Shown: positions 5,281 to 52,475 of the stretch, one piece after another
How the letters are laid out: every line of letters starts with the position of its first letter
Numbering within the stretch: the first letter of the stretch is position 1
Origin: Bryoerythrophyllum caledonicum
Lineage: Eukaryota; Streptophyta; Bryopsida; Pottiales; Pottiaceae
Length of the DNA stretch: 64,000 nt
Assembly: GCA_963971425.1 (NCBI GenBank)
Contig: OZ020517.1
Location: 29,530,668-29,594,667 of the forward strand
Reading direction: 5' to 3'
Translations under genes and position numbers: made by a program
The notes under the pieces: generated by a model
The model's database searches: none
Seen by the model: only the letters and a program-made list of their open reading frames with translations
What the model was told of the DNA's origin: nothing

Positions 5281-5283
5281 CAT
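5281..5283. repeat. Target-site duplication (cat), left copy
   Basis: The 3 bp cat directly precede CACTA at 5284 and recur directly after the right terminus at 47366-47368. A 3-bp duplication is the CACTA superfamily norm. Confidence 0.85.
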
Positions 5284-5371
5284 CACTAGTACAAAAGTGG
5301 GAAAAAAAAACCGCACTGGATTCACCATTGCGGTTCTTTTGACCACGTTTTTGCTAGGTGGAAATCGAGTG
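5284..5371 (+). repeat. CACTA left terminal inverted repeat
   Basis: 88 bp, pairing with 47278-47365 in inverted orientation; starts CACTAGTAC and ends CGAGTG. A poly-A run and a gcggttcttttgaccacg core are shared with the small fold-back element at 45521. Confidence 0.9.
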
Positions 5372-5826
5372 TCCAAGATGACCAAAATTGTGGAATTTAA
5401 GTGACTGACAATGGAAAGTGGGGCAATTTATGTACTGAAGCCACAAAACGCGTGTTCTAGACAATATACCGAGATGGCTACTGTGAGTTGATGTTCTTGG
5501 CGTTAACAAGCTAGTTAGTCTCAAACAACATTGGACAATTACATCATATCGCGAGGTCATATTAGAATGATTTAACTTGAACAAGATTTCTACTCAGCAG
5601 TCAATGTCAATGTTATCTTCCTTCACTTCTCTATGGTCTCCATTCAAAGATATGGGGAGCCTCTTCTAATTCTTGTATTCCAAGCGATTCAGGGCAAGTC
5701 TGTGGGGGCGGCTTCTCTGTTCACCTTCTAGCAAATCAAGCATGCTCCCTCCCTCAACACCACCCTTCCCGTCCGTGATTGACCAACACCGTACAGACAA
5801 TCGCTACCTCCAATTGCTTTACCTAC
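5372..5826. other. CACTA left subterminal region, no gene
   Basis: No coding signal. Unlike the right end, no clear array of short subterminal repeats is visible here. Confidence 0.5.
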
Positions 5827-6024
5827 CTCATTCACAAAAGATTCCACGATGCTCAGCAGTAGAGGCTGAGATTCCTGACTCTCTGCCTTCGCTTCATCCA
5901 CCAGTCCCAAAATGTCCACCAGTTTGGTTCTGTTGTACGCCCTGGCTTGTGCACCAAAACTCTCACTCGGCAGCAAATGCACAAAGTCCAATCGCGCCAC
6001 TAGAGCAGCATGTTCCTCGCAACC
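5827..6024 (-). pseudogene. Gene-like exon, possibly a captured host fragment
   Basis: On the - strand an acceptor-like ...aatag precedes 6024 and a donor-like GAG/GTAGGT follows 5827. They bound exactly 66 codons with no stop. The peptide (starting GCEEHAALVARLDFVHLLPS) has a globular composition unlike random ORFs. I do not recognise the family. A poorer open stretch (6263-6033) lies upstream. CACTA elements often capture host exons with flanking intron, and this fits, but coding status is inferred only from composition and splice signals. Confidence 0.35.
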
Positions 6025-6269
6025 CTATTCCCCTACTCAACAACTATACATGGTTCAGCTCCGGCACATAAATCTTCAATGTGTGCTCCAACTCGCACCA
6101 CTCCAGATACTCGCACACCTATGCCATCAGCAACTTGCCTGCACATCATCAACACCTCAATCACACAAGCCCCACCCAACACTGCCAACATAAGAGAATA
6201 CTCTCCCCCGACAAACCTCAACATGCACGGCCTCATATCCACCTCATTCTGAACATGGAACACAATCCA

Positions 6270-7842
6270 AATTGCTCTACAACCACATACACTTCCGCCA
6301 TCCGTAGTGACACGATGAAAACTTTCCCTACAACGAGAGGGCCTCAGTAGACCAACACACCATCAATCCAGCAAAGAATTGACTTGATGTGGAACAGTAT
6401 GCTCGTGTTCACACACTCCCGTATGCTACGTTGTCGGGTAGAGAAGTCTTTGCCTTGGGAAAATACTGGATTTCTTGCTGCAGTTAGTTTTGGCTTAAGA
6501 CATGAAAGACAAGGATAATATAAGAAGTATTAATCCTTGAACACATCATGTATACATACTTGTATCTATACCCTTTTGTACGTATACGTAGAGTATTCCT
6601 ATCCGTATACGTAGAGTATTTTTATACGTACATGTAGAGTACTTTAATACTTGTATTTGTCATGTATAAATACAGTAGAACATACTATACGAATACATGA
6701 TTTATACGTACAAGTATAATACTTTTATACATACATGTACAAAGTATAAATACGATCTACCGTATACAAAACCGTATAAGTTTTGTACATACCTTCAAAA
6801 TCCCGAATCTCCCTCAAAAATAATAGCCAAACTTCAAATAACCACCAAATTAGCATAAACACTTCAAATCAAGAGTGCATTAGCTTTTTGGAAAGCTATC
6901 AAAGTGTTTAACAGAGGGAAAGAAAGATTAAAACTCTACAAGGTACTGTCAAGAGTCCATAGCTCGTCAAAGGTCGTACTCCCAAATTCAGCATCAGCTG
7001 CACCTCCCTTTGCTTCACAGAGCACTCTGACTTCATACAAGCTTTTCCAAAGCCAAGTGATAGCTTCCTAGAAAGCTAATAACACCACCTAAGCTCTCTA
7101 CAAAATTCGTCTTGAGAATCTATACCAAACGTTTTCTATGCTCAGTTGAAGTTGGTGCTTACTTCCACTCTTGAATTTAGTCGGCAGCTCAACACCCTCT
7201 CACTTTCAAAGCCATAACTTTGTCTCAAACAATCTAAATAAAAAGTTACAAAGCTCCATAGAAAACTAACACAAAAACACTTGACTTGCTCAAATTTCAT
7301 AAACAAAAACACTATAAACAAGTTTCTACAAGCTTTTGAAGTCTCGGTCTTCTAAATTTCTTTACAGCAGACACTGTCCAACTCAAACACTCATAGAAAT
7401 TACACACAAATCTCAAATAGAGCGTGCTATATCATTATGAAACCACAACGACAAGATGTACAAGCTCTTAAAATCTCATAGTAAAACTCGTAGTACACAC
7501 TGAGCTCTTGCTCTCCAAAAACTGCACACCGAAAAAAACTCAACTCTCGTGGAAGAGAGAGGGGAACCCGACCCCTTTGCCCCCTCCCAAAGTCAACACC
7601 AGCCCATACCTACGCCTCATGGGCCTCAACTAGTCATTGGCTAACTCCCTTAAGCTTACTTCAGTCTTATCTATCCCTTATCTTAGCCATAAGGCATCAA
7701 AAGTCTACCAAATGGAAAACTATTTCTACCTTTCATCTACCAAACTTCTAACATTCAAGGTGAAGTTTGGAAACATTAAAAACTAAACAAATAAAATCAA
7801 ATATATGTCTAAAAGAGCTTGAAAAGAATTTCAAGAGGAACT
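6270..7842. other. AT-rich spacer, no gene
   Basis: Between about 6560 and 6780 there are many interspersed copies of a gtatacgtagagtat-like motif, giving an imperfect AT-rich simple repeat. The rest shows no coding signal. Confidence 0.5.
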
Positions 7843-8301
7843 TCACTCCATCTGCAAGAACTTGAGGATGCGTTGAAGGATAAGAGCAACAAAGTCAGCA
7901 CGAGCAGCCTTGGTCAATGGATTAATTGGACCTTCAAGCCAACGTTGATGACCGCGACTCCCTTTGATAGGCCTAAGACAACAAGAGTATTGATTGTCAT
8001 TTAGGCCTTCAAAAATCCCTCCAAACGTCACATCTCGAGTACCAGGTTCAACACACCCAACCTGCAATAGAATCACCAGGGCACGAGCATCTTGTTGAAG
8101 ATTGCCGTGCCACCGCTGCTCCACACGAGGTTGCTTTGGCGGCCGAGAAGGCCCAGCTTCTTCTTGTGGACGCTCAAGCAGTGGTGCAGGACTAAGCGGC
8201 AGAAGAGTACAAACCGGCAGTTGAGATAAAGATAAATCTAGCTCAAGCTCTGGTTGAAGCTCTTCATCCTGAGACTCAGAAAAAACTCTCCAATTCGACA
8301 T
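7843..8301 (-). CDS. Hypothetical protein, 152 aa
   Basis: An ATG at 8301 opens a 152-codon frame to the stop at 7843. The N-terminal third is acidic and Pro/Leu-rich. The C-terminal half (about residues 75-152) looks globular, with a VILLQVGCVEPGTRDVTFGG segment. I do not recognise it; any resemblance to the VTFG motif of Costars proteins is too weak to use. It could be another captured fragment within the CACTA or a chance ORF. No splice structure or promoter is evident. Confidence 0.3.
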   Translation of the reverse strand: MSNWRVFSESQDEELQPELELDLSLSQLPVCTLLPLSPAPLLERPQEEAGPSRPPKQPRVEQRWHGNLQQDARALVILLQVGCVEPGTRDVTFGGIFEGLNDNQYSCCLRPIKGSRGHQRWLEGPINPLTKAARADFVALILQRILKFLQME

Positions 8302-8524
8302 GTCCAAAAAAAAATTCAAAACAACTACATAAAACTGATGAAGCTCTAAATGAACCTTCTTCTTATAACACAAATACTTTGTAGAAGGCGTCACCTTGAA
8401 GCTTTCCCAAAGATGTGATAATTTTTCTCCAATCAAATCCACTCAAATAAAATATAAAATAAAAATATAAAACAATGGATAGGGATATAAATCCCTTCAG
8501 CATGCTCTGATAATCGCCAAGCCG

Positions 8525-8745
8525 CGGAAGTCCAACTGGTAAAGTGCTTCAAGCGCCATAGCACTGGTCCGGGTTCGAAACCCTTTGGACCCGTATGAGC
8601 ATGCGAATGGCCACGTGGCTTGGCACTGCTAGTGAAAACTAGGCAGGAAACTACCAGTTGGCGCCATCTACCCCCCCTGAGCATGTGAGAAGATGCAGAG
8701 ACTCTAAGTTTCGTGGTTAAAACCACGGTCCTTTCTCTTCCCCCT
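8525..8745 (+). mobile_element. tRNA-derived SINE-like element
   Basis: An A-box-like stretch (tccaactggtaaagtgc, about 8531-8547) is followed about 25 bp later by a perfect B-box core ggttcgaaacc (8572-8582). This is an internal RNA polymerase III promoter layout. The flanking sequence does not fold as a complete tRNA cloverleaf and runs on into an unrelated body and a pyrimidine-rich end, as in plant tRNA-derived SINEs. Ends and target duplications were not resolved. Confidence 0.5.
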
Positions 8746-9963
8746 TCATTCCTCTGATCTCCCCCCCTCCCTTTTGTCTATACTTTTATTTTCCTTAGTT
8801 TTATTTTTATTTGCTCTGAACACTACTCTCAATCCATTTCACACTGTGTTTACATATTAAACCGTTTCTTTACACGACAACGTCACACCAAAAACCTCCT
8901 TACAATCTAGCCTCCCTGCACCACTGCCGAACCTATGCCGCATTGCATCTCCGCTCGTAAAACCAGTTTCCCTGAACTAGCACAGAAAGTCAAGGAAAGA
9001 AACATACTCGAATCCTAGCGAGCACGCCCCTCTTCTCTACCGTCTTCGTCACCAACGACTTCAGGTCCACCATCTCCACAACTAAAAATCGACCCTGGAA
9101 AACGCTCGAATTTCAAGGGTCCAACAGTTCAAAGTTCAACACTTTCAAGTCTTGAAAAATGGCCACCAAAAATGGGCCTATTCATAGAAAACCACCAAAA
9201 TTCTAGTGTAGAAATCCGTCAGATTTCAAGTGTAGACAACCACTCTGCAAGGCTTGAAAGTTGTAAATTTTCACAGGTGAAAAATTTGATTTTTCTGGTG
9301 TATGAACTTCCGTAGTTCTCTTGAAAAACTGGTATTTTCAAACCATGAAGTAAGCTCTTTTTCAATGAAATACTCTACCATTCAGGTGGCGCATTCTTCC
9401 CATTCTTGGGAACAATATACAGTGGTTCATTGTTTCTGCACAACACAATGTCGTATCGCCATCTACCTTCTCAACCTACACTGAGCTCTACCATCTAACT
9501 TCTCTACTGACACTGAGGTCCTCAACATGCACATGGTCGTCCCACACGGCCCACACAAATCATGTCAAGTAAAGAACTTGACAGACCTAGTCCCTTAAGC
9601 CCTTTGAGCTCACATGGCTTATCACATGCATGCGCATGTCCATAATCAATGGAAATCAAGAAATAAGGAGCTGCACACCGTCGACTTCTCTACCAGCACC
9701 TTCATCTCCTCTTCCTTGAGCAAGTCTGTGCAGTTACACCCCCGGACATATGATGTTGGCCACCTCGAAGAACAGAATGCCGATCTCACAAGAACGAGTT
9801 CTTGGGCCGTGAAGGTCGAGGTCACAGAACTCCCAAAGGTGTCAACTGCTCCCAAAACCTGAACACATCGAGAGATGCAACGAAATGACATATCAATAAT
9901 TTATAAACGATAAAAAATCAAAGAAAGAGAACACAGCTACACAGAAAATGTGGATAAATGTAC
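8746..9963. other. Spacer, no gene recognised
   Basis: Only short open frames with no recognised motif. Possible non-coding flank of the gene-like fragments at 9964-11049. Confidence 0.4.
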
Positions 9964-11049
9964 CTCACATGGATCAATTGTGAACGTTGCCATGGGATAT
10001 TGACGCTGAAGTCCACCTTCAGTCCATAAAGTAAACTTAGGAAGTTGTTTCCAAGACGAGGGCAGCATTATTAACTTCTTTGAATTCATTGCCCGACCCA
10101 TGGAGAGCGACGGCCCGTTCTCATGCCTTATTGCGGCAACAGAGAAGCTGTCATTAAATCCTGGCCGCTGCTGCAAGTTATTATATGTGTATGCTTGTCC
10201 TCATTTGTCTGGTCCAAAAAAGCACCCACAGAGAACACAAGCTCAGAAATGAAAGGTTTTGCAACTGGTCACTCAATTACGAGGAACGGGAAGTTGGAAA
10301 CCGAGGCATTGATATGAATCATTAGTCAACAAGAACTACGAGAAGCCCATTTTTTCTCAGACCAAAATGAACTCGACGAGATTGGCAAGTGACAAACCTC
10401 TCTTTGAGCTGAAGATGAAATAAGATGACTTCGGCTCCACTCTCGAGCTGCGAATGATAGAGGTTTGTAGGATTGGTGTTCATATCCAATGCTTCCAACT
10501 TCGATGTTGCTCCAGTCGAAAGAGTAAATGTCAGCAGCTCCCACAAGTTTCTGCGAAACACCTTTTCTGTCGGCTGCTTCCGAGATGCGTTCGGCGACTC
10601 ATTCCCACCCTTTCGCGTTTGCGTAAGAAAGCAGCGATTGAAGACGTTGAGTTAAAATATGCAAATCGAAAGTGGTTTCTTTCAACATCCAGCCCTGATT
10701 GTAGAGCAAGTCTTGTGCTTCACAGCTACTCGTGTATAACTCCAGGCTCTCCACCTCGTTGCAGAATTCTCCATTCCCGACTAACACAACCATTGTGTTG
10801 CTAGGTCTCCCTTCGTTCTCAACCTGGTATAAAAAAATCCGGTATTATGAGGTTGATCTGGTATATCGACAAGCTGTACACATCAACAATCACTGCATTA
10901 ATCCTCAATGATCTCAATTCCAATGGTGTCGCGTCAAACGCAGGGTTCACCAGAAGCAGCGCACTATCCCATTCCCATCCTGCCACTGAATGACCTAAAT
11001 GTTGTCCCATCGCTCCAGTGCCGCATAATGAACCTCCTCTGTCTCTCAT
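9964..11049 (-). pseudogene. Degenerate unidentified gene fragment(s)
   Basis: Several - strand stretches look protein-like: 11049-10819, 10793-10599, 10561-10322 and 10176-9964. The last ends at a good donor (GAG/GTACAT at 9964). The frame through 10599 is closed by a TGA, and two alternative frames look plausible beyond it, so the gene is broken or the exon model is incomplete. I do not recognise the family. Its place inside the CACTA, with other captured fragments, suggests transduplicated host exons, which is inference. Confidence 0.35.
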
Positions 11050-13129
11050 TCTTAAACCAAACCCCTAACTACACACTCCTCACCAAAAGTCCAAAATCTA
11101 AACTAAACCATCACTGAACACAGCGGCATCCACTCCACTCCACGAACACCGGCTCGCAATCCCGGGTGACAGCAGACAGAGAAATGCACCGTATCTACAA
11201 CCACAATTCCAAACCAAAACCCTCTCCTACAGAATCTGACTCCGATTTGCAAATATGACTCCAATTTTACATCAAAACACAGTGCATCCACCTACACCAG
11301 TTTCCAAGAAGCCCTGGCAAACCGATGAGACCATAAAGCTGCCCGCCCATACGAACTAGACCATGAGCACAAGCATACGATCAATCAACTTAATCAATCC
11401 CACCCGAGACAAATGGTGTCTTAGTCCCATATCGATTGTAGAATAGATCGGAGTAGGGTATAAAGAAGAAGACAACACTCCACAATTTCGAAATTACCCA
11501 TTACACATTGATCATGGTGGAGGGGGGTTGACGTGGCGGCCTATGTCTAGGTGCTTGTGCCGGACCCCTACTGCCTTGACTAATATCTTCAGTCGACATA
11601 AAACCCTTACCATAGCCCTACATAGTTCTTCACGCTTATAGTCATTTTTGTGGAAATTTATCGTCCTCCTTATATTCTTATAAAATTTACATCCACTACG
11701 TTAATTTAATGTTAAAGTTATTCCTACATGACCAAGGGATTTTTGTGTTGTCAAATATAATCTTGTACTTAATCCCTAAATAATCCCTTTTGCAAATCTC
11801 CGGCATGTTTCCATCATGGTTGTGATATATATTTACAATTCTTGGAATTTTCTACAATGATGCAAGAAGACAATAGGTACATGTTTGACTCGGGTTAATA
11901 TACCATTTCTCTATAAAGTACATAAATGAATTTTTTTGAGAAATCTAGAGAGTTCTCCCTCTCTCTATTTAGCCCCTCTTGTTATGATTTTTATAAACAG
12001 AAGATTTTTTTTTGGATTCTTCTTTGGATTTTATATTCAGTTATATGACTTGCGCTCCTCCTCCATTGATAGATTTGATACTTAGTAAATTTTAATTTTT
12101 TAATTGTCCCTCTCCATCTCCTTCTCTTTCCTCTTCCGTTATCTTGATTGAATTTTTTATTTTTGGAAGTCCCTTTCTTGCATTTGCCACTATTATTTTT
12201 AATTTATTTTAAACAAAAGTAGTTCTTCTTAAATTCCACTAAACCCTCACATTCTGTATTTAGTTTTATGACTTCAGTCCTCTTCCATTGATTGGGATGA
12301 CGTTTTTTTATTTTAATTTTTTGATTCTTCCTTTCCATCTCTTTCCTCTTCCTTTATCTTGATTGAATATTTTTGTTTTTGAATGTTCCTCTCTCACTCT
12401 ACCCCTATTATTTTGACTTTTTAAACTAAATTTTTTTATCTTGGATTCTTCTTTTAATTCCATATCGAGTTTTATCACTTGTGTTCCTCTTCTAGTGATT
12501 TGTATGACCCTTATTGAAAGCAAGATTTATTTATAAAAAATATATGAAAATAAAATGGAGATGGCACCTATCCTGCGTGGCATACAACTTGTAGGTTTGA
12601 ATATTCTTTTCCCTTTAATCATTTAATATTGCCTAAGAAAGAAATAAAAGAAAATTTGTTTCAAATGATTCTTCTTCCATTGTTATATTTATGTCTTGTT
12701 GAGTCAGCTAGAATCGAGACAAATTTTAGAACTTGAATATTTTTTGAATGTAAAGTTTTTGGGAGTTGGATAAACGTAACTTGGAAAATAGAATTTTTTA
12801 TTAAAAAATGAGCAAAAATGATGCACTCCCAAGACATTGCGGAGGTTATCCATTATAGATCTATTTTGGCCGAAACGTGCTGAACTTCAAAGTTATAATG
12901 AGAGTTGGTGTAATAGCTTTGACGTCACACATGAATCCATAAAACAATACTGGAAAATTTATGTGCACCACAAGAATGTAACAATGGAATGCTATTATGA
13001 TAGGATGTAAAGACAAATATGTTAAAGCCCTATCATGGGCTTCTCAAAAAAACCTTATAGATACATAAAACGTGAGGTAGCAGAACCATTTCCCAAACAT
13101 TACTAACATCATATCACAACTACTCATAA
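11050..13129. other. AT-rich spacer, no gene
   Basis: From about 11.9 to 12.5 kb there are pyrimidine-rich tracts with loosely repeated cctcttccattgat/tttttatttt modules in two or three degenerate copies. No coding region is supported. The last part is the 3' flank of the dioxygenase gene. Confidence 0.45.
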
Positions 13130-14676
13130 TCAAGATCGAGCCCTCTTCTTCAAAACATTTGAAGAACTTGATGGCTCTGCTGTATCACATGGCCATGTGT
13201 TTTCTTGCGAATAGAATGAAGCAGCAACGTGGCGGCCACGACAATCAACCTGCACCCACAATAAATTCATCAACAACCATTATAGAACAAAATATTTGAA
13301 AAGGCATTATTAGACAATTACAGCTTGACAAATATCAATTATATTTCATATCGCCAAAAACAAAAACAAAAAAAACATGATGGAAAGAGAGGCATTTACC
13401 CGATTTGATTCATATTTCTCCTTAGCTTTTTTGTAACTGATAGCAATCTCACTATCGAGATGATCCAAAGCCGTCTTCAACTTCGTTATCACGTTTCTCT
13501 TTTGGACGAACGCCATGCCCAATGCATTTACACGTGAAGTTCTTGTGGTGCAATGGACTGTAGAATTACAATTCGTCAATAGCGCTGCACCATTTGGTGA
13601 TTTGAACTGAATATGATACTGCGGTAACCAAATCGATGGAAACTGTGTGACTTCCACTCCACCATCTACAAAATATACAAACGATAACTTTTGTCAATAG
13701 AGGTAATAAGAAAAGAAACATCAATATATTCTAACAAGTTTTGTTTAAAACTTACTTGGATAAAGCCATACAATCATCCCAAATCCATAATCGGTAGGAT
13801 CGATGTGTGGACTACAACTATAATCTCAAGTCACCGAGAAACACGTGAACAGCGTACTTGCAAATCTGCACTCCCCTGCTGGTAATCCTTCATTGATAAG
13901 AACTTTCTCCAATCGCTCCATCGTCGTTGGAAACGTTTGCTTGAAATAATTGGATATTTCAGCCTCAAACCTCTCCGACAAATCATACAAACAAAAGTGA
14001 GAGTGGGTGAACCTGTTTGAGCAAAACATTTTATTAGACATCAATTAATATAAAATATACAACACAACAATATAAAAAAATAAGCTTAAACAAGTACCTA
14101 CGATCCAATCTGGCCATGCTCGAAAAGGCCATACATTACCATGCGGCTACCTCCTACTTTCGATCCTCGTACTGTAGACTTTCCATACTTCTCCAAAATG
14201 GACGCCATACAATAAAGTCGTGGACTCTCGTCTTGAGGTATAACGTTGAATCGCAAGACACCCACACAATTTCCCATGTCCTCAATCATTGCTGTCGGCG
14301 TCTGAATCAATCTAAAATTCTTGACGTCTTTGGACAAATCGTATGAAGTCGAGTAGAAAGATTTAGGTTTAAAAACCTTTGTCACCTCCACAGTAGGAAC
14401 ATCCGTTGACGCATCATCACGCCTTTCGTGCTGGTATTTGAAATGATGTTTAATCTTGTCCACACTACGTTCAAGTACAAGATCACAAATGGTACATGAG
14501 TACGTATTACTTACAGCATCATGCGACACACCACATGACTCCAAAAACGACTGGTTGAAGACAAGTTCTGCAAGTCTGCGATGCCGACGTCCGTTGTTGT
14601 GACGAATGATTTGAGCCTCGTTATTTGGCATTGTTCCGCACTTACAAATCTGACACTCATACATAGAATTGTCCAT
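13130..14676 (-). CDS. Zinc-finger 2OG-Fe(II) dioxygenase, TET/JBP-like candidate
   Basis: Four exons fit GT/AG rules and keep phase: 14676-14102, 14012-13756, 13665-13400 and 13249-13130. They total 1218 nt, or 405 codons plus stop. Residues about 8-36 form a U1/matrin-type zinc finger (CQIC ... HNNGRRH) and about 60-85 a C2H2 finger (CTIC ... HHFKYQH). The C-terminal part has a 2-oxoglutarate/Fe(II) oxygenase signature: H261-x-D263, then a WLYPNGG strand, a distal H315 (TVHCT) and a basic 2OG-binding candidate, R322. It ends with a basic LKKRARS, possibly a nuclear signal. One in-frame TGA (13828-13826, codon 254) sits just before the HxD motif, so this copy may be inactive. The oxygenase fold is well supported by motif order; substrate and TET/JBP membership are inference. 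Confidence 0.7.
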
Positions 14677-14794
14677 TTGAATATTTCGCTATTCCATAAT
14701 CACCTGTTGTACAATGAAACACAAAACATAATCAATCACTGAAATAAAATTATCAATAAAAAGAAATCTATGTAATAAAACAAAATCATTTTCC
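14677..14794 (-). promoter_or_regulatory. Upstream region of the dioxygenase gene
   Basis: Short AT-rich 5' flank between the ATG and the 103-bp tandem array. No unambiguous TATA box can be singled out. The position makes it the likely proximal promoter or 5' UTR. Confidence 0.3.
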
Positions 14795-15493
14795 TGAAGC
14801 AAAATTACTCTTCATATCAAGGCCATGTGCAAAGCACACGACGTTAATAATTCAAGCAAAATCACAACAAGGAAAACAATTCCCTCTGAAGCAAAATTAC
14901 TCTTCATATCAAGGCCATGTGCAAAGCACACGACGTTAATAATCCAAGCAAAATCACAACAAGGAAAACAACAACTCCCTCCCTCCCTTTGAAGCAAAAT
15001 TACTCTTCATATCAAGGCCATGTACAAAGCACACGACGTTAATAATCCAAGCAAAATCACAACAAGGAAAACAACAACTCCCTCCCTCCCTTTGAAGCAA
15101 AATTACTCTTCATATCAAGGCCATGTGCAAAGCACACGACGTTAATAATCCAAGCAAAATCACAACAAGGAAAACAACAACTCCCTCCCTCCCTCTGAAG
15201 CAAAATTACTCTTCATATCAAGGCCATGTGCAAAGCACACGACGTTAATAATCCAAGCAAAATCACAACAAGGAAAACAACAACTCCCTCCCTCCCTTTG
15301 AAGCAAAATTACTCTTCATATCAAGGCCATGTGCAAAGCACACGACGTTAATAATCCAAGCAAAATCACAAAAAGGAAAACAACAACTCCCTCCCCCCCT
15401 CTGAAGCAAAATTACTCTTCATATCAAGGCCATGTGCAAAGCACACGACGTTAATAATTCAAGCAAAATCACGACAAGGAAAACAACTCCCTA
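14795..15493. repeat. 103-bp tandem repeat, seven units
   Basis: Units start at 14795, 14887, 14990, 15093, 15196, 15299 and 15402. Spacing is 103 bp in the middle and 92 bp at both ends. Each carries gaagcaaaattactcttc and a ccatgtgcaaagcacacgac block, and the middle units end in a ccctccctccct tract missing or shortened in the 92-bp units. Copies are nearly identical, so the array is recent or homogenised. It lies directly upstream of the dioxygenase gene. Confidence 0.95.
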
Positions 15494-16569
15494 TGAAGCA
15501 AAGTATGTAAAATATAGGAAGGTAGTAATCCAAACAAAATCATGACAAAGAAAAAACATGGCCAAAAGATGTCATACCATTTAATTGCTGTCATTTCATC
15601 CAGCAAATCTTCATAGATTGAGAGTTCCCTCCAAATAACCTCGTCTCCAAATCTATCTTTTTAAGTTCTCCATATATTCTTGACATATCATTTAGACAGA
15701 TCTTCTAGTGAAATCTTCTACTCAAATCCTCTACTCAAATCTAATCCTCACATATGGCTTTTACAAAGTATCTAATCAAATCCTATTGCAATCACTTGCC
15801 CACCTTGTTGCATATCAAAGTGAGTAGTCTGCAAGCTTAAATATATCACATTGCGGTTAACTGAGCCAGTTCAATATCACATTGTCGAGGGTAATTTCCT
15901 AAAAATTGGTTCACGTTATAAGCTTGAATAGAAAACTAAAGATTACGTTGGAGAGATGCATTCCTTCAGCTCAAGTCTTATCCATCCTGCAACACGAAAA
16001 AACTCCCACTAAATTATTTTAATCAACACATCAGATTCAAGTGCAAGTATTTTTAAGGCAATGCTATTACTGAAAACAAACGAATAGTGCACAACTGATA
16101 TGCCGAAGATCAAGCTTCTGCAATTTACTGTAGAAAAAATCACATAACCACTCACATGAATCCACAATGGAAAGAATGTGTATACATTGAAACAGACAGA
16201 TAATAACCTCGTGAAGACAGAGCGCTCCTCACTCATGGCCCTCATACTTCAACATCTTCGCCATGCCTGTCAAGTTCATACCCATCGAGACATTCTGGTC
16301 GCACGGTAGTGCTCGAACCCGTCCGTTCACAGCAGCAGTACCATCACCGCCACATAATTCGAGTCCGCTGCCACCAACAAGAGCTCCGTTGACGAGCAGT
16401 TGAAGTTCACGTCCGTCACCAGATCCTTGATCGACTCCAGCACCTAGCTCCCAGCTTACACACCCACCACCAACAGAACCTCGGAATAAATACTGACCAC
16501 TCAAGTTGCGGCTTCCTTTTCTCCAAATTTTTTTTTCTCTTGTTGTCCTCAGTCTGCCTCAACACACAC
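15494..16569. other. Spacer, no gene
   Basis: No convincing coding signal; AT-rich up to about 16.2 kb, then the start of a GC-richer block. Confidence 0.4.
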
Positions 16570-16686
16570 CAGCGCCTCGTCTCATATCCTGCAACGCCTG
16601 TCCATCGCCAGCGCCTCGTCTCATATCCTGCAACGCCTCTCCATCGCCAACGCCTCGTCTCATATCCTGCAACGCCTCTCCATCGC
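16570..16686. repeat. 39-bp tandem repeat, three copies
   Basis: Units start at 16570, 16609 and 16648 (core cctcgtctcatatcctgcaa). Being a multiple of 3, they generate repeated peptides in all frames, which explains spurious ORFs on both strands here. Confidence 0.9.
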
Positions 16687-17898
16687 CATCGCCACCGCTT
16701 CTTCTTCTTCAAGTTTCCATAGCAGGTCTTCTTCTTCAGGCTTCTTCTTCTTCAAGTTTATTCGAAAAGTATAACTCCTTTTTCACTGCCTTCACAGCTG
16801 CAACCCCCCTTCACTAAAACCATTGTATCATCTTACTCATAGACTTAACTTGCAAGTGCAATAAATCCATTGAAATCTGACTTGTAGAGCTAACTAACCT
16901 CCAAATTTCATAAAATGAAGAAGTAGAACAAGGAAATAGTGAAGGTTTGAATAGACCGCACTTGAAACTGCCACCGCCGTAACTCTCCAGACCCTTCTCT
17001 CCAAAACAGCCGAAATTTTGGTAGCGCTTCCGCGCGGATTTTTCACACAAGAATTTTTCACAACAATTACGAGCTGGAATCCACAATGCACAATTCAGCT
17101 TCCATCAAATCACGAAGTTGGGAAGAAGAGGCTCCCTGATTGGAAGTTGGCCAACCCCGCGGCCGCTCATCCCGCAGCTCTCTCTCACCAACACTCCTCC
17201 TCCGCCAATGTACTCGCGGAGTCCCAGCAGCGCCTCCATTCGCGTACCGACAGACTCGGCACTTCCACCGTCTCCACACAGACTCCGGCCTCCGCCAGGT
17301 CGGCACTTCACCCGTGGACGCAGATGCAGCCACGTAGAACTACAGCCGCAGAACTTCTCTCACCAACCCAACTTGTTGTAGCCGACACAACCAGCCGCCG
17401 AGCCTCCAACAGCATCGGATCGCATCGCCTCTTGGCCTCCGGCGTAACTCCGCAACTCACTCACGTCTCTGAACACACCCTCGCACCAAACTCACACAAA
17501 AACCCCAGACTTCAATCACACACAGGCGCTCTCCGCACCCCAAGCTCCTATCGTCCGAACTCCAACCGACGTCGCACACCAGCTCCCTCACCTAAACGCC
17601 AAAAGACGACGATCCTTCGCAGCTCACTCCGAACCCAGTACCGGATCACGGCTCGTGTCCACAGACCCGCCACGACCTATCACTTGCACCACTGCGCGTG
17701 TCTACAGACACGCCCCCCTTCACGTGAGCAATTCACCTACACAACACACACGAACGCGCGATGCCGTTCACGCAAGTTCAGCAGGCCAGCTGCCTCCAAA
17801 TATTCTTCCCAAAAAAAAAAAACAACGTCTCCCCCAGCCCAAACCTCTGCCCAACGCCCTCGTACTTCCCTGCAGCCATGCAAGACTCTCCCAGATCG

Positions 17899-18152
17899 CA
17901 CGAGCCTGCCTCCGCACCGGATCGCCACCCCCCTTCTCCAAAAACAGAGTCTCCCACGAGCCTACCGCCGCACCGGATTGCCACCCCCCTTCTCCAAAAA
18001 TAGAGTCTCCCACGAGCCTGCCGCCGCACCGGATTGCCACCCCCCTTCTCCAAAAACAGAGTCTCCCACGAGCCTGCCGCCGCACCGGATCGCCACCCCC
18101 CTTCTCCAAAAATAGAGTCTCCCACGAGCCTGCCGCCGCACCGGATTGCCAC
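17899..18152. repeat. 56-bp tandem repeat, four copies plus a partial
   Basis: Units start at 17899, 17955, 18011 and 18067 with a partial at 18123 (core cacgagcctgccgccgcacc). Differences are single bases. A lone related segment (gattgccaccccccttctc) appears at about 22007, next to the inverted partner of the cassette at 18165. Confidence 0.95.
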
Positions 18153-18164
18153 GGTTCTCATTAT

Positions 18165-18325
18165 ACTACTCTCTGGAACCGTTTGCGGAGCATCTTCTCG
18201 GGCAAGCTGGGCCGCTCTCAACACCGGCGCCTTGGCGGCTCCCTGGCCTGCAGTCTGCGCCAGACCCGGCCCACTGCTGCTGGCCCATACCCGGAGTTGC
18301 TCTCATCCTCAGGCATCGACTGCGC
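18165..18325 (+). repeat. GC-rich inverted cassette, copy 1
   Basis: About 160 bp (starting near gtttgcggagcatcttctcg) that recurs in inverted orientation at about 21827-21985 with an estimated 80-90 % identity by eye. It could be a fragment of a coding exon, but the reading frame is not conserved enough to say. Confidence 0.75.
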
Positions 18326-18530
18326 CAACTTCAATTTCAAATTCCCCGCGTTTCGGAACGCATGCAAACCCTAGTAGGACGCTGTTCGGGACTCCTTTCG
18401 GCGCCGCCTCCTTTCAGCTCGGCCTTCTTCCAGCTTTCTCTCTCAACCCCGCAAGACTTTTAGCTCAGCTCCGCCTCCTTCCAACTCTCTCTCCCTCTCC
18501 TTACGTGTGTGTTTAAATTTATGAACATGA

Positions 18531-20314
18531 AATGTACAAGTAGAAACTCGTTGCGGCATTAGTGGCTTATTCAGATTTATCGTTTGAGAATTGAGCATGA
18601 GTTGTCGTATGCGGTTTAGGGTTGGTTGTGATGCTCTTGGCTATATATTCTCGCAGTGATTGCAGGCGATGGTGATGCATAGCAGCCTACCTACACCAGC
18701 TTTGACAACAATGATCGACTCCTTGACTCGTCATCTGGATCCGACTTCTCAGGATAACCATCGACTTTTTATTTGCTTTGTATCTGTGGGAATCGTTTTT
18801 GTTGCATGAATACAAGCTGACCTCTAGCAGTTAGAAGGACTTCGACACGGACAGAATCAGGTATGGTCACGGTTTACCTTGAAGATCAGTTTACAGAAAC
18901 GCATTCTACACTAGGATTATATCATGGTTCGGTATGCTGTCAGAAACGTATGTAGACAGCATATGGAGAATCAATACCATAACCCTGCAGTAAAGGCTCA
19001 CTAATAAAATCTCGCTCAACTCATATCATCACACAATCATCACACAAATCAGCATAAAACGAGGTAGTGTTTTTTTTCCAGGAAACGGATTACTAATGTG
19101 TCACATGGGGCAGTGAACACTTTGGGCAGCAATCCAGCCTAACCAGCCGAACAGTATTCATTGAAAATGTCACCAGTAGTATTCCCTTGTGTTGAAACTC
19201 ATGCCTTTATGTTAAACTCATGCTCGTGTACTATGCACTGAAATTCATCATTGGCTGAATGTCACCAGTACTCATTGGCAGCTCTGCATGGCCAACTGCA
19301 GAAAATCTGAAGCTTGATAATTACATTGCACATCGACATCACGTTGATTGAGATGAGAGCACTAGTCTAGGTAATTTTGTTCTTGAAATTCATCATTGGC
19401 TGCCTCATAATGAGTTTTGAGTAGTAGCTACACAATCTGTACACTTATTGCAGAGGTGGTGAGAGGTTTCGATGGATTATGAGTGGAGGTGTTTTGTGGA
19501 TCACCGGACAGCTGCACCATGCACATCCGGGGAGAGATTATGAACTGTAATGTTCTCCTTATGTTGTAGTTATGACCTATAATGCTCTCTTCTCCAGAAT
19601 CTGTGATTTCCAAGTTTGAATCCGTCTTGTTTATAGGTAGGTGCAATATAGGAATGAGGAGACATTGGAAATATGTGGATTGGTCATATATGACAGGGTG
19701 TCCACCATTAGAAAATGATACGGTTTAAGGTAAGTCCCCCATAAGCAATGTGCATATATGGAGAGAGCATATAATATTTCATTGATTTTTCATCGATAGC
19801 CAATAGAATTCCAATGATAACCCAAAGGATTTCATATTTTTTTGATGAAAATTGAATCAGTCACGAATTTTCAAAGTGTGTTGTGATGTTCAGAGGGTGG
19901 CCACCAATAGTACTCCATAACCACCAACGAAAAACAAAGGTCTTGACTAATAGCAAATCTCCATTTTGAGCTGAAATAGTAGTGTTGGGATGGAAGTGAG
20001 TTGGAAATAACCCAATTTAATAGGCATTGACTATAGATTTTGGTTGATTATAGGGGGATTTAACTTAGATCTTGTAACAATTTGCTATTATTACTGAAGG
20101 GAACAAATAATAATATTCAGCACTAGATGAACTACAAAAATGTAAGGGTTAAAAGATGTTTATATATCATTTTTAATTTTAATACTAATTTTGAGATTAA
20201 GGGTTTCAAATAAACATACTTAAGAAAATAAAATCCACCTGAATAGTATTCAAATGTTTCATCTTCACAAAAAAAATTGAAAGTTATGGAATCAACAGTG
20301 ATTCTTCAAGAAAT
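18531..20314. other. Spacer, no gene
   Basis: AT-rich, non-coding in appearance; no repeats beyond short homopolymers. Confidence 0.45.
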
Positions 20315-20709
20315 TAACCCCTAAAAGCCCAAGCCATATTAGAGAAATCTATACTTAGTTGATAAAAAAAAAGTCAAGATGAACTTATTGAAAATCTAAC
20401 TGTAGAATCTTCTTCTAAAATTTTGTGACATGATGTGGTCAAAATTTCTTAAATTTTGATTGTACGGTTAGAAAGATAATTATGGTCAAAGCGTACATTT
20501 TTGTACCTAGTAGGTACATTTGGGCCTTTAGTGTTTAACCCCTAAAGGCCCCAGTGTACCTACCGAGTACAAAAGTGTACACTTTGATTGCAATAAACTT
20601 TCAATGCATGTAGTCAAAATTCACGAAATTTTGACCACATCATCTCATATTAGTTTAGAAGAAGATCTTATGGTTACATTTTCAATAAGTTCATCTTGGC
20701 AGTTTTTAA
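20315..20709. mobile_element. Pair of inverted TTAA MITEs sharing a central TTAA
   Basis: Two short elements (20315-20537 and 20534-20709) lie tail to tail. The segment around gtcaagatgaacttattgaa (about 20371) reappears inverted near 20675-20695, and the centre near 20535 is ttaacccctaaaggcc. Outer and central borders are TTAA. The pair forms a palindrome of about 390 bp and abuts the next MITE, sharing the TTAA at 20706-20709. Confidence 0.7.
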
Positions 20710-21640
20710 CCCCTAAAGGACCACGACCACTCTCGCTCTAAAACCAGTCCAAAACTGCCACTGCCAAAAAGAGACATGAAAATCACATCTTAAAGTGAAT
20801 TTTGGATTTTCAATTGTAAGATCTTAAAATAGACATCTATATAAACATGCCATATAATTTTGGTTGCAATCCACCGCACGGATTGATAGATTTTAGTGTT
20901 TGAAGTCAAAACAATGGTTCAAGTTCTTCCCTGCGTTGAGTAGATCAGCAGACTTTGACTTCACTTTGTATCAAATTTTTGCATTGTACAAGGTCTAAAT
21001 CCTATACCATTGTCTTAAGCATGATGTTATTTCCCTACACACCAATTTTTAGAGGTAAAAAAGGGGTGTAGCATATTCAAAACAAGTGTGCAAGGAGGAG
21101 TGGAGGTTCAAACATTGTCATTTCACGTTTCATTTTTTTGTGAACTACGTATGTATTCAAATGATAATCCAAACGGTCAATAAGAAGGTTTGCACCATAT
21201 ATTGTTTTTGAAAAAATAAAAAGTGAAAAATGAGAAGATCTCTAGGTTTTATGTAGAAAAGATGAAGTTTTTTTCCCCGTTGCCCGACAATGTGTGAAAA
21301 TGTTTGACTTGGAATATAATGCCTTTTTACACTAAAGACAAGATTTTTTTTTGAAAATTTCCAAAAAAGGAGATATTCTTTATATGTGTGAAAAATCTCA
21401 TTGTCAATAGAAACTTTTGTCAAAATTTTTGGAGGTGCCCGGTCTCCCCACTTTTGGCTTTAAGTGGTACTAACTTTCAAACCACAAATCCAAAAAATAA
21501 AATAAAAATATGTCCACGAAGCTCTTATCAGAGGCAATCTAGAATAAAAATTTCAGAGAAAAGGAATTATTTTTCGAATTTTAGGAACCTGCCCAAAATA
21601 AGAAATCCCCCGAAGGAGACTCTGGTCCTTTAGGGGTTAA
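20706..21640 (+). mobile_element. TTAA-flanked MITE, full copy A (935 bp)
   Basis: Starts TTAACCCCTAAAGGACC and ends with its inverse (ggtcctttaggggttaa). The body has no transposase. A second full copy lies inverted at 22362-23287 and a diverged one at 30025-30975. Flanks are TTAA in every copy, a piggyBac-type target preference. Confidence 0.85.
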
Positions 21641-21826
21641 TCAACAAACTAGAAAAATCCTCTAAAATGGCATGTGCATGTAGGGGTTAATCCAAACACA
21701 ATTTGCAGTGGGCCAGCGTTTGGTAGTCATTGGTGATTAGGAACTTGAGCCGATCAGGCAACTCCATCATGGAAAGTTGCTATCAGCTACAGAACTGAGA
21801 AATAACCCATGATATGGGAGAAATCA

Positions 21827-21985
21827 TGATGCCTGAGGATGAGAGCAACTCCGGGTGTGGGCGAGCAGTGGTGGGCCAGGTCTGGCGCAGACTGCGGGCC
21901 GGGGAGCCGCCAAGGCGCCGGTGTTGCGCGGGGCCCAGCCTGAGGGCAGCTCAAAAACTGTGGGCCTGCCCGAGAAGATGCTCCG
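21827..21985 (-). repeat. GC-rich inverted cassette, copy 2
   Basis: Inverted partner of 18165-18325, located between two inverted MITE copies, followed by a single 56-bp-repeat-like segment (about 22007-22042). Confidence 0.75.
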
Positions 21986-22361
21986 CAAACGGATCCAGAG
22001 AGAACCGATTGCCACCCCCCTTCTCTAAAAACAAAGTCTCCAGCTCAGTCTCGCCAGAGATTTGGCCTAGCCGGTTTTTTTTTCTTTTTTCTTTGTTTTT
22101 ATTTTCAGCAAACACATAGAACCATACTTAACTCTTTCTTTGTTTAATTTTGATGCACTTCAACAAAGACAAAACAAGTGCAAGCCTCAATCTACAAGAC
22201 ACTAATCTTGACCACAAATATAACGCCGCAAACACTTATTTTGAACATAAGAGATGATCTAATTTCTTATCAAAATATCTTTTCCGTTCTCGTAGGTGGT
22301 GGAAGGGTTTCTGGAGGTTGAATTGTACGTCACCGCATCGTGGACGAGGTATATAGTCTTC

Positions 22362-23287
22362 TTAACCCCTAAAGGACCATAGTCTCCTTCAGGGGGATTT
22401 ATGATTTTGGACAGGTTCCTAAAATTCGGAAAAAAATCCTTTTTCTTTGAAATTTTTATTCTAGATTGCCTTTGATAAGAGCTTTGTGGACATTTTTTTT
22501 TTTTTGGTGTGGGTTGAAAGTTAGTACCACTTAAAGCCAAAAGTGGGGACTCCGGGCACCTCCAACATTTTTGACAAAATTTTCTATTGACATTGAGATT
22601 TTTCACACATATAAAGAATATTTCTTTTTTAGGGAAATTTTCAAAAAAAAATCTTGCCTTTAGTGTAAAAAGGCATTTTATTCCAAGTCAAACAATTTCA
22701 CACATTGTCGGGCAACGGGGGAAAAAAACTTCATCTTTTCTACATAAAACCTAGAGATCTTCATATTTTTCACTTTTTATTTTTTCAACAGCAATACGTG
22801 GTGAAAACCTTCTTATTGACCGTTTGGATTATCATTTGAATACATACGTAGTTCACAAAAAAATAATACGTTGAATGGCTATTTTTGAACCTCCACTCCT
22901 TGCACACTTGTTTTGAATATGCTACACTCCTTTTTTACCTCTAAAAATTGGTGTGTTGGGAAATAACATCATGCTCAAGACAATGGTAAAAGATTTAGAC
23001 CTTGTACAATGCAAAAATTTGATACAAAGTGAAGTCAAAGTCTACTGATCTACTCAACGCAGGGACGAAAATGAACCATTTTTTTGACTTTAAACACTAA
23101 AATCTATCAATCCGTGGAGTGGATTGCAACCAAAATTTTATGGCATGTTTATATAGAAGTCTATTTTAAGATCTTACGGTTGAAAATCCAAAATTCACTT
23201 TAAAATGTGATTTTCATGTCTCTTTTTGGAAGTGGCAGTTTTGGACTCGTTTTAGAGCGAAAGTGGTCGTGGTCCTTTAGGGGTTAA
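22362..23287 (-). mobile_element. TTAA-flanked MITE, full copy B (926 bp)
   Basis: Inverted relative to copy A, with the same termini and TTAA borders (22362-22365 and 23284-23287). Copies A and B could form a stem of about 900 bp separated by about 720 bp if transcribed. Confidence 0.85.
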
Positions 23288-23898
23288 TGTTTTGCTGTCA
23301 TTAATATATTAGAATGTTTCCAAGCATTTATCAAGTGTTTTTTGGATGTATCTTTTCTGTTGTAGGTGCCTGTTAGCAACAATCGACCCTAGTCTTTACA
23401 ATACGGATCTCATCATGTGGATGCCCTTCTTATAAGCTGCCTCAAACATCTCGTCATGGACGACTAAAATGTTACATCCGAAACCATCTACTACTAAATT
23501 GTATTAAAATTTTGTCAATAACACTGCTTTAATTTTTTTTCTCTACATGTAAATCTACAAGGACCGTCCATTTCATCCCTTAGTAAACGGATGAGAGTGG
23601 TCGTTTATTGTCTAAACTCCTTTTCATTGTCTCTAGATCTACAAATTCAGCAGATTCTGGCATGCCAGGAAGAGATCAAGGGAAATTTGAACACACGAAG
23701 GATGTTTGTCGATTTTAAAGAATTTTGTTTTTGTGTTGTCATCGTGAAGATCAGCATAGCATTGGCTCTACTTCCAATGTTGGTTTTGATGTGACTTGAC
23801 TCATGCGATTTAGTGCCTTGTCCCGATTCTTGTAGTGTATTGCGCTAGGGTTTGACGCAGGTTTGGCATCAGTTGCAATTGATGCGTGAGGGACCAAT

Positions 23899-24334
23899 GG
23901 GATGAGAAAAAATGAAAATTGAAAAATATGAAGATCTCTAGGTTTTATGTAGAAAAGATGAAGTTTTTTCCCCACTTGCCCAAAATGTGTAAAAATGTTT
24001 GATTTGAGTTAAAATGTTTTTTTACAGTAAAGACAAGAATTTATATTTTTGAAATCTTCAAACAAGGTAATATTATCTACATGTATGGAAAATCTCAATG
24101 TTAATAGAGACTTCTAGCAAAATTTTGGAGTTGCCCGGAGTCCCCAATTCAAATTTTGAGTGGTCCTAATTTTCAAACCATGAATCCAAAAATAATTATA
24201 CAAATATCCCCATGAAGCTCTTATCAGGGACAATCTAGTATAAGATTTTAATATAAGTTTTTTTTTTAAATTTGGAGAACCTACCCAAAATCCAAAACGT
24301 ACACCCCACGTACAGTTGGGCTCTTAGGGGTTAA
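23899..24334 (+). mobile_element. Truncated TTAA MITE copy
   Basis: Homologous to the distal half of copy A (gaagatctctaggttttatg onward) and ending cttaggggttaa. The other terminus is missing. Confidence 0.75.
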
Positions 24335-24842
24335 GTTGCCCTCAATGATCATTGTGAATAATGCACACTATTTTCACTGACTAGTTGTGGCACCATTCAT
24401 CCCCTCCAACATTGCACATTTGGCGCTATATGAATTCCATGAGTCCTTCACCATTTTGCACCAAATTGGTTTTTGGAGCAAAGCATTTTCTCAAGAATTG
24501 AAAGGGCATTCCATGGAGAAGATTGTTTTTCAAAGAAGAGAGGATTGTTTTTCAAGAAAAGAAGATTGTTCTTTCAAAAGAATAGCGCTTAGTTTTAGAG
24601 CCATCCATTACTTTTACATCATACAAGATCTAATGTAGGCCATGTAGATTAAATTAGTATGTACAATTATTGTAGCTAGTAGAAATGTCACATGTTCAAA
24701 ATGACTAGTTCCAATAGACAAGGACTGAAATACTTTTAGTATAGATGATGTTTGATATAAGTAATTAAATGTCATTGTGATGGTGTATTGGTTCATCCAA
24801 TAGTTTCATATTATGGGAAGCTTGATGCATTCATGTAAATAT
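24335..24842. other. Spacer, no gene
   Basis: AT-rich sequence with only short open frames lacking recognisable motifs. Confidence 0.4.
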
Positions 24843-25012
24843 GTACATTTCAAATAAATGCACGATTTTTTAATATATACATGTTGAAGAAATACATACT
24901 TTTCTATATGGAAGTGTATTAATAGGGTGTACATTTCAAATAAATGCACGATTTTTTAATATATACATGTTGAAGAAATACATACTTTTCTATATAGAAG
25001 TGTATTAATAGA
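24843..25012. repeat. 86-bp direct tandem duplication
   Basis: Segment starting gtacatttcaaataaatgca at 24843 is repeated at 24929 with about one visible difference, so the duplication is recent. Confidence 0.9.
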
Positions 25013-25574
25013 GAAGATGTGTTTTTTGAAAAAAAACGGAGAAAAATAAAAAATGCCCATAATTTCAATATAAGCCTATAGACATAGCATTACATGATGA
25101 TAGTTATGTGATCATATTTATATCAATGTGGTCATTGAAGTTTGCTTATGCTTGAATTTAGGAATTAATGTAAAGCTTGTTATATAGTTAAATATCACTC
25201 ACGTTTTTGTTTGGTCTACAATTTAGTTGGTGTATGTAAATACTGTAAAGGATGTACAGTACATACAAGTTTGATTGAATATGTATAGGGAGTGTTGCAA
25301 TCCTTTTGAAACGCATGTACTTGTTTATGAAATCTTAGCATATAATCATCTATCGCTAAATATAAAAACTTGTGACTTCTATTTCATCAAATTTCTTTCA
25401 TGATTCTTTTTCATTTTTTCTTTCAAAATCACTTATTTTTAATCATGAAATCAGGATATATATAAGTACATCTCATTTGTTGCAATTTTTGAGAAATCAA
25501 GTTGCCTTGCCAAAAAAAATGTCACATGCACATGTGACATTTTCACAAATACTATATTTCTATCCCTTCTACAA
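25013..25574. other. Spacer, no gene
   Basis: AT-rich, no coding signal or recognised repeat. Confidence 0.4.
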
Positions 25575-25957
25575 TTTCCTTGAATATGTTACACTGCTTT
25601 TTTACCTGTATAAAATGGTGAACAAAGAATTTGCATCATTTACTACGTGATGGTATAAAATTTAGGCCTTGTGCAATGCAAAAATTTGACATTAAGAGAA
25701 GTCAAACTCTGCTGCTCATGTGAACAAAGGGAAGAAAAAGACCTTGTTTTTCTCTTCAAACACTGTAACCTCCCAATCTATAAAATCAAATTCCATGAAA
25801 TTTGGAGAACATGTATTTCTAATAGTCTAGATAAGGATCGTGCGGCTGAAAGTTTAAAAAAAAAACTTTTATTTTTTGTTCCTTCTCTTTGCACTAGAAT
25901 AAGTAGTTTTGAAGTGTTTGATTTTTTGAGAAATCATCAAGGAACCTTAGGGGTTAA
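25575..25957 (-). mobile_element. Truncated TTAA MITE copy
   Basis: Shares the gtgcaatgcaaaaatttgac and tcaaacactgtaa type segments with the proximal half of the family and ends ccttaggggttaa at 25957. The other half is missing. Confidence 0.65.
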
Positions 25958-28303
25958 TATTAAGTTCTAGATTGCTATGTCCACCAACAATCTTAGTACA
26001 ATTTATAGTACTTTGAATATTGAAAGAAGGATGAAGGTTCGAAGAATATGTTGTGGAAAGTGGTATTCCTTGGAATGTATGGCTACCAAATTTATGAGTG
26101 GAAATTTACCAAGGAGTTTGAGAGGTACTAGACCCAATTTATTTATTTATTTTGCAACTATGAGTTAATACACTGAAATTTTGTAGTGGAATAAGAGCAT
26201 GAAGATTGAGGAATGCTATAATAGTTTAAGTTGGGTTGGATTTATTGAGTATGTATGAATACAAACATGGTGAATACTACATCTACTAGGTTCTATTAAT
26301 AGGATATATATATGTATTGAAATAATTCATAATATGTAATTCCAATAAGTTATAACAATATTTACTGAAACCATAGGATGATAAGCTAAATATAGTGTGG
26401 GATTTGTATATGTTCAGGCCTGAAGTATTATGGTAGCTACATACAGAAGTATGATAAACCATGTATCTTATTCTTTTTTTATCAACCATAAGATTTTATA
26501 TATTCCTGACATGAACAATGATTACTACATTTGTATCATTTTTCCCAACAAGTTTTTACATGTCATTTGTGTAGACAACAATAGTAGCATTGAAAATTAT
26601 AGAGTGAGGCATCATTATAATATATTGTTATCCTATGTTTGATTAAGCCAAGACTCTTTATATGCCCCTAGAGTGCTTACATTTTTACTTGAAAATATAA
26701 TTTTATTACCATGAAGGTGCTTAAAGTGCATTACGAGTTGACATTGTAAGTGCAAAAATGCATGCTCTTAGGCATGGTTGGACTAATTTCAAATGCGTGT
26801 CATTACTAGAATGCTATGTTGGAAAGTAAGTGTATGTATAATCTCACATATTTTCCGATATGGCAAGCATACTTTCAAATTTAACACCTCAATAAAAGTT
26901 ATGCAAAAGTGAGAGAACAAAATAATAAATGATGAAGTGGATGAAGGTAGAAGAATATATCAGATGCATACCATTTCATGGGTAGTTGCTTCTCAGTGAA
27001 GATTTTGCAACAAGTGACACTCTGCCATGCACTGTCACCCTCAATAATGTCCGAGCTACCCGCCCATGACAATTAATTAGCGTCAATTGCCCCAATACCA
27101 TCAACTATGCCAACACCATGAACAATAAAGTTTCCTTGTTAAAACTACACTAAAGATTCCGCCAGTGTCATTAATGTGACCCTCAATCAACCGCCTACCG
27201 GCCGCCATGCCTTTATTCTCCCCCATTAACTTCTCATCCTCATTCCAACCAAATTTTGGTTACAATCAACGACTTTTCATCCTTGACAATCTTCTATTTT
27301 TTATACACTAAACGTCCACAAGTCAAAAAAAAAATAAAGATGCGATCTTTATAACAATTGACAAATAGTCTACTACTTTGTATTTAGTGTATGGTCTTAT
27401 CACTACACTGACCCTTGTTATTTCTGTAATCCATCCAATCGTTGGATACTTATATAACATTTGCATAATGTTATTCTTATACATGCTACATTGATATCTA
27501 TTCAATAGCATGCGAAGTAACATTTCATTATAATGTAATGTTAATGTTAATCAAATGTTAATTTCACCATTGCCATCATAAATAAAGTTTATTGTCATTT
27601 TTTGCCATTCTAATATATACCAATTTCATGTAGACATCTTTATATCTAATTTGATGAGGTTACTTGCATGCCTTTTTTACAACTGTTATCTCAATGTAAT
27701 TTTCACACCATCTTATCTTCAATTAATTGATGGATTAATATTGTAGAGGTTTAGTGTTATTCTAGTATCAAATAGATGTAGAAAAGGACATTTCTTCATT
27801 TTCCTCATGCGACGAGTTTCATTATCTATTCATGATGTTTGTTGAGCCCTATCCTAAAGACTTATGCTTACTTCTTAATTGTAGGGAAGCTCCAAAGAAT
27901 TTTTTTAATTAATAAAAAATGCTAAATTCTTGGTGCTAAACATAGTCTTGATATAATATAACAAGATATCAGATATCAGATTTGGCAATATCATTTAAAA
28001 AGACCTATTTATCAAATCTACTTTATATCAATAAAAAAGATATGAACATTGGTCATATATTCAAAAGAATTAAACCTTCACTACAATAATGAAAGTATAA
28101 GTGACCTAAACTAGAAGTCTATTTATAAATGTAAGCCAATTTGAAGACATAACAAGCATAAGAAGACTCTAATCTTGAAAAAAAAAACTCAATATAAGAC
28201 AAAGTATCCCGTAGCTCACTTGTGTGTACTAGCATAAAAGTGGACACATAAGTAAGTGGATATACTAATTGGATGATATGCAAGTGGATGGAATGATCCT
28301 CAT
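25958..28303. other. AT-rich spacer, no gene
   Basis: Only short open frames; no domain, tandem repeat or terminal repeat recognised. Confidence 0.45.
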
Positions 28304-43330: not shown

Positions 43331-43339
43331 CGTGCATAG

Positions 43340-45425: not shown

Positions 45426-45520
45426 TATCCAAATTAGGGCCGTTCTTGTGTATCTCAAGTGTAAGAACTTGTCACGCGTCTTTCCTATCTTATCTAGAAT
45501 GTGAATCTATGAAGCCCTAT

Positions 45521-47140: not shown

Positions 47141-47277
47141 ACCAATTGCTAGATACTTGTTTCATATTTATCAATTATTACCTCCAACAAAAATAAAATT
47201 ATAAGTCAAGAATGCGCAATAAATTATGCGACAATGGAAATATCCAATCCATTGTCACAAGAAATCCTAAATTTTGG
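47141..47277. other. CACTA right subterminal spacer
   Basis: Short AT-rich stretch between the duplicated subterminal block and the right TIR; no gene. Confidence 0.4.
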
Positions 47278-47365: not shown

Positions 47366-47368
47366 CAT
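47366..47368. repeat. Target-site duplication (cat), right copy
   Basis: Matches 5281-5283 on the other side of the CACTA element. Confidence 0.85.
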
Positions 47369-52473: not shown

Positions 52474-52475
52474 TT

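Follow-up and report, generated by a model that had tools for sequence, protein, structure and literature searches.

The 64,000-nucleotide stretch analysed here (the window) comes from the moss Bryoerythrophyllum caledonicum (assembly GCA_963971425.1, contig OZ020517.1, positions 29,530,668 to 29,594,667) and contains a CACTA transposon that carries a gene for a predicted zinc-finger oxygenase of the TET/JBP fold. The terminal sequence CACTAGTACAAAAGTGGG was found exactly at 5284 on the plus strand and at 47365 on the minus strand, and at no other site of the window with up to three mismatches (two found against 0.11 expected). The element ends form a 93-bp inverted repeat of 95.7% identity, which by end-to-end comparison spans 5284..5376 on the left (plus strand, 93 bp) and 47274..47365 on the right (minus strand, 92 bp), and both ends are flanked by the 3-bp target-site duplication CAT (5281..5283 and 47366..47368). 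The inverted termini and the duplication therefore delimit an element of 42,082 bp (5284..47365). A plant-type tnp2 transposase lies on the plus strand in two overlapping open frames (37314..39223; PF02992, E 1.6e-22 and 4e-31, above the cut-off), together with a DUF4218 part of the transposase gene (39571..40176, plus; PF13960, E 1.2e-29) and a weak transposase-associated domain (36886..37335, plus; PF13963, E 0.002, below the cut-off). The features by which CACTA/EnSpm elements are recognised, namely inverted CACTA termini, a 3-bp duplication and a tnp2-type transposase, are all present in the window, and the termini and duplication bear out the first-pass annotation, which had placed the gene inside a CACTA transposon.

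The oxygenase gene runs from 14676 to 13130 on the minus strand, oriented towards the left terminus, and comprises four exons with GT...AG introns that join to 1218 nt, or 405 codons and a stop. Exon 1 (14102..14676) encodes two zinc-finger motifs and the start of the oxygenase region, exon 2 (13756..14012) holds the H261-x-D263 motif, exon 3 (13400..13665) the second iron histidine, H315, and exon 4 (13130..13249) the basic tail. The sole in-frame break in the window copy is a TGA at codon 254 (13826..13828, minus). This gene model and its basic tail had been predicted at first pass, and both were recovered when the window copy was compared with ten others with fetched flanks; the same four exons and exactly 1218 coding nt were seen in 10 of the 11 copies, with small gaps in the eleventh. 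The U1-type and C2H2 fingers of the earlier prediction stand as motifs, though library matches to them are weak (zf-met, E 3.8). The U1-like finger 1 (14581..14655, minus) reads C8-x2-C11-x14-H26-x5-H32, and the U1 finger of ZNF346 was matched at E 0.026 by a family profile (A1); finger 2 (14428..14496, minus) reads C61-x2-C64-x12-H77-x5-H83 and keeps all four ligands in 11/11 copies. Upstream of the gene all 11 copies carry a tandem array of 3-7 units of about 100 bp, the nearest about 200 bp away (14794..15502 in the window).

A search of the moss's own genome covered 437 Mb in 894 contigs with 103 of 150 candidates scored, so the copy counts are lower bounds. It returned at least 125 exon-level matches, with a tail of paralogues down to about 25% identity, and at least 16 near-full loci in which the match to exon 1 starts at residue 1, extends over 150 residues or more and has no less than 82% identity. 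Of the 54 genome sites with the terminus pattern, 26 differ from it by one mismatch at most and 28 by three. Inverted termini 32.7-59.9 kb apart bracket 12 of the 16 loci (with three mismatches in one of the 24 termini), two loci on short contigs (C871 and C861) have the near terminus only, and two (on C14 and C2) are without any terminus. Seen from the termini, 25 of the 26 near-exact ones flank an oxygenase copy, the single orphan lying on C11, and a perfect 3-bp duplication surrounds 10 of the 12 bracketed copies. Because of the bracketed copies, the near-exact termini beside copies and the perfect duplications, the oxygenase gene belongs regularly to this CACTA family. Homologues confined to single-copy host genes unlinked to CACTA ends, which would have spoken against the first-pass annotation, were not what the genome holds, as the gene lies between CACTA termini in many copies, some of them intact. 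Copy number and duplications rule out chance, an assembly artefact or a single host gene, and chance is further countered by the exon structure shared by 10/11 copies and by iron ligands that are invariant in the family.

Among the 11 copies, five have no internal stop, one of which (c871) has an altered splice acceptor and an altered HxD, leaving four intact; many others have decayed. The pooled ratio of nonsynonymous to synonymous differences per site (pN/pS) was 0.35 over 55 pairs, and lay mostly at 0.2-0.45 between the more distant groups. Judged from these copies, the predicted oxygenase is under protein-level constraint, as would be expected of a gene that is under selection between transpositions and decays once inserted.

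The fold was approached with profiles and with a structural model. When profiles of own-genome paralogues were compared with the PDB, the algal enzyme CMD1 scored far better than the TETs; CMD1 was reached by these profiles only and not by single sequences, and in one PDB list (profile A2) the unrelated chain NUP192 ranks among the TETs at E 0.4. The Physcomitrium patens protein alone placed CMD1 at E 0.7, below unrelated chains, and a single-sequence search with the broken window copy gave no Pfam family over the cut-off and no Tet_JBP line, no meaningful PDB match and one metagenome protein. The predicted structure of P0007, a P. patens homologue, is a double-stranded beta-helix with HxD...H in the TET/JBP fold, and its nearest folds are enzymes acting on 5-methylcytosine (5mC) in DNA among the structures listed, with oxygenase families beyond that list possible. 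From the profiles and this model, the gene is predicted to encode a TET/JBP-fold non-haem iron oxygenase nearest to CMD1. The TET/JBP-type fold proposed at first pass is thereby upheld, and the profile search placed the protein inside the oxygenase fold, at scores below the PF12851 cut-off.

The active site was read against CMD1 (PMC7854593, available in part) in a 22-row family alignment, counting rows with a letter at each position. The iron ligands H261 and D263 (13799..13807, minus; CMD1 H345 and D347 by alignment to 7cy4) are kept in 17/17 rows, and H315 (13553..13555, minus; CMD1 H397) in 13/14, as is Thr at T317 (CMD1 T399), the odd row in both cases being P0010, where the position is apparently intronic. 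These H, D and H residues are invariant in eight family members that are 20-53% identical to the query. Asp is present in 16/17 rows at D266 (13790..13792, minus; CMD1 D350), and Trp in 18/18 at W274 (13766..13768, minus; CMD1 W358), a position that is Ser in one decayed copy, c1_436; equivalents of CMD1 D350, W358 and T399 are thus present. In the part of PMC7854593 available, CMD1 of Chlamydomonas glycerylates 5mC with vitamin C, its D350 reads the cytosine N4, and its W358 is required for vitamin C and considered an obstacle to 2-oxoglutarate. The arginine that binds the C5-carboxylate and marks canonical 2-oxoglutarate TETs (TET2 R1896, NgTET1 R289) was found in 0/13 rows, the position (CMD1 R410) being A, M, I, L, Q or E. 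The HxD...H...R core described at first pass therefore keeps its iron triad and loses its arginine, since R322, considered as the co-substrate arginine, is neither conserved nor at the 2-oxoglutarate position. The label '2-oxoglutarate' is not supported either, given the missing arginine, the invariant Trp and a nearest solved relative that uses vitamin C.

We propose, at a probability of roughly 0.62, that the gene, as a fixture of a giant plant CACTA element, encodes a zinc-finger TET/JBP-fold enzyme that modifies 5mC against silencing. Cytosine is the probable target because of D266. As W274 is present and the arginine missing, vitamin C rather than 2-oxoglutarate may be the co-substrate, the bolder step of the proposal, to which we give somewhat less than even odds. 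The fingers and the basic tail would hold the protein on DNA, presumably that of the element itself, where 5mC would be flipped out and its methyl group modified; the element would then be less strongly silenced, and transposase could be made and act. The element's own enzyme may thus erase methylation directly, and relief from silencing would be its benefit to the element. A further and doubtful extension is that a land-plant transposon uses its own vitamin-C-dependent enzyme to mark its DNA with 5-glycerylmethylcytosine (5gmC) or a different hypermodified base of the CMD1 type, where the methylation readers and maintenance enzymes of the host would fail.

Several observations weigh against the proposal. 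No scored member reaches the cut-off of Pfam Tet_JBP (12.5-28 bits or less against 34.9 for PF12851), and because its scores fall below this curated value we do not class the family as a PF12851 member; when the whole genome was searched with PF12851, a single place came up, itself sub-threshold. The modelled protein is the homologue P0007, which is 23-33% identical to the exons of the window family. The match to CMD1 is also incomplete, since the R418 position is K333 (13499..13501, minus; Lys in 13/13 rows), the S414 position is Ala in 10 rows and Val in 3, the F416 position is Phe in 8, Tyr in 2 and Val in 3 (Val in the window family), the T337 position is Thr in 9/17, and the CMD1-essential R244, F245 and H249 are unmappable, as that region would not align. 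Besides, two of the 12 bracketed copies (c12_154 and c4_67) lack a matching duplication, and the pN/pS pairs are non-independent, with a value up to 1.0 in one young pair.

The same evidence bears on three other explanations. The enzyme could be a conventional 2-oxoglutarate oxidase of the TET type that yields 5-hydroxymethyl-, 5-formyl- or 5-carboxylcytosine, as proposed for fungal transposons, with a likeness to CMD1 in fold only; we consider this unlikely, though a serious alternative, since all 13 rows lack the arginine at the TET2 R1896 position, all 18 have Trp at that of CMD1 W358, and the PDB profile score is far better for CMD1 than for the TETs. An action on RNA, N6-methyladenine (6mA) or protein is improbable. 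ZNF346, matched by the finger profile, is an RNA-binding protein and U1-like fingers might bind double-stranded RNA, and the fungal CcTet acts on both 5mC and 6mA (PMC11040006, as far as its available text goes); against this stand the Asp at CMD1's cytosine N4 contact in 16/17 rows and nearest folds that are DNA 5mC enzymes.

CACTA elements are known to capture genes, and the oxygenase might be a captured host gene that is merely carried along and brings the element no benefit. The decay of many copies and the probable host-type homologues in P. patens (P0007) and in the moss's own genome (L029) would fit such a history, which we nevertheless regard as very improbable, as all but one of the 26 near-exact termini lie next to a copy, the frame and introns are kept at a pN/pS of 0.35, and a relative is present in a second, diverged family. 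This relative is 40% identical, has a second finger pair, and occurs in two copies that are 99.1% identical over 13.9 kb. Their homology ends exactly at CACTAGTAGGAAATG..., beyond which the flanks differ, and the gene lies about 4 kb from this terminus and is oriented towards it. The opposite end was not located, and as the 13.9-kb shared stretch starts without a CACTA sequence, the second CACTA family is supported by one terminus.

Homologues of the family, A0A2K1ID74 among them, are present in Physcomitrium patens. L029 (C4:32182500-32185000) and P0007 belong to a deeper lineage that also occurs in P. patens (identity by piece 49-65%). This lineage may represent a host gene ancestral to the transposon version, or the reverse. 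Another branch, with L036, L035, L055, L033, P0003 and P0004, resembles CMD1 more closely in sequence and has a motif of the HGTR type and a short stretch of GGEF; its member L033 has no introns and one internal stop. No relative was obtained when IMG/VR was scanned with the family profile (one peptide pattern). Elsewhere in the genome, inverted pairs of a related terminus with three mismatches lie 333 and 158 bp apart (C1:42804809-42805141 and C14:13454413-13454570) and resemble short non-autonomous CACTA derivatives. LEAFY-type SAM domains were seen at several loci, with a C2H2/BED-like open frame near two of them (L053 and L054). One LEAFY-type gene has Asp, the residue of mosses, at a position that is His in flowering plants, in keeping with a moss host.

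Within the element, an insertion of about 2.4 kb (6431..8880) was seen in the window copy; the ten others compared do not have it at this position. Two long open frames are without a Pfam match, of which 32445-35083 (minus) may be a second transposon protein and 16955-18516 (plus) is of low complexity. The window also holds a Ty3/Gypsy retrotransposon at 49703-62909 (gag frame 53525-56053, pol frame 56057-59497), whose long terminal repeats are 99.9% identical over 2771 bp (3 mismatches), and its insertion is therefore recent.

In the general view, plants demethylate DNA by glycosylases and have no TET enzymes. Those anti-silencing factors of plant transposons that we know of are DNA-binding proteins. 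A TET/CMD1-type gene carried nearly always by a moss CACTA family, with homologues in P. patens, makes two questions testable, namely whether 5gmC or oxidised 5mC is present in land plants and whether a transposon chemically alters its own silencing mark. If the enzyme modifies methylated DNA, the element may loosen its own silencing; were the 5gmC extension true, base hypermodification would be a counter-defence of a eukaryotic transposon and this 5gmC the first outside Chlamydomonas. The available part of PMC12458080 notes that 5gmC has not been reported from other species and raises the possibility that this base works against the repression of transposons.

A transposon with a TET/JBP enzyme is itself of a known kind, since Kojima 2025 described such genes in fungal DNA transposons of 11 lineages, among which is EnSpm, and proposed escape from methylation (PMC12730594, available in part). 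The moss element shares with them a predicted TET/JBP-fold oxygenase between transposon ends and a proposed escape from methylation. By description rather than by sequence, the fungal systems are set apart by their hosts and by three gene types (PU, AG and PE), while the moss element has a plant host, a tnp2 transposase, zinc fingers and a CMD1-like active site. The words 'moss' and 'land plants' are absent from the available text of PMC12730594, and a literature search gave no plant transposon-borne TET/JBP gene, with a mention of plants in Iyer 2009/2014 possible. The novelty lies in the plant host and element, in the joining of zinc fingers to a domain like that of CMD1, and in an active site that favours vitamin C. 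TnpA of Spm would have transposon-encoded relief of silencing in common with the moss protein, if the proposed function is right, and so would VANC of VANDAL (PMC10398659, in the part available); both are DNA-binding proteins without an oxygenase domain, unlike the moss protein. TET2, NgTET1 and CcTet hold 2-oxoglutarate by an arginine that the moss family lacks, and W274 occupies its place. CMD1 of Chlamydomonas reinhardtii (PDB 7cy4-7cy8) is the closest of the known systems, from which the predicted moss enzyme differs by its carriage on a transposon, its zinc fingers, Lys for R418, Ala or Val for S414 and the unmapped R244/F245/H249.
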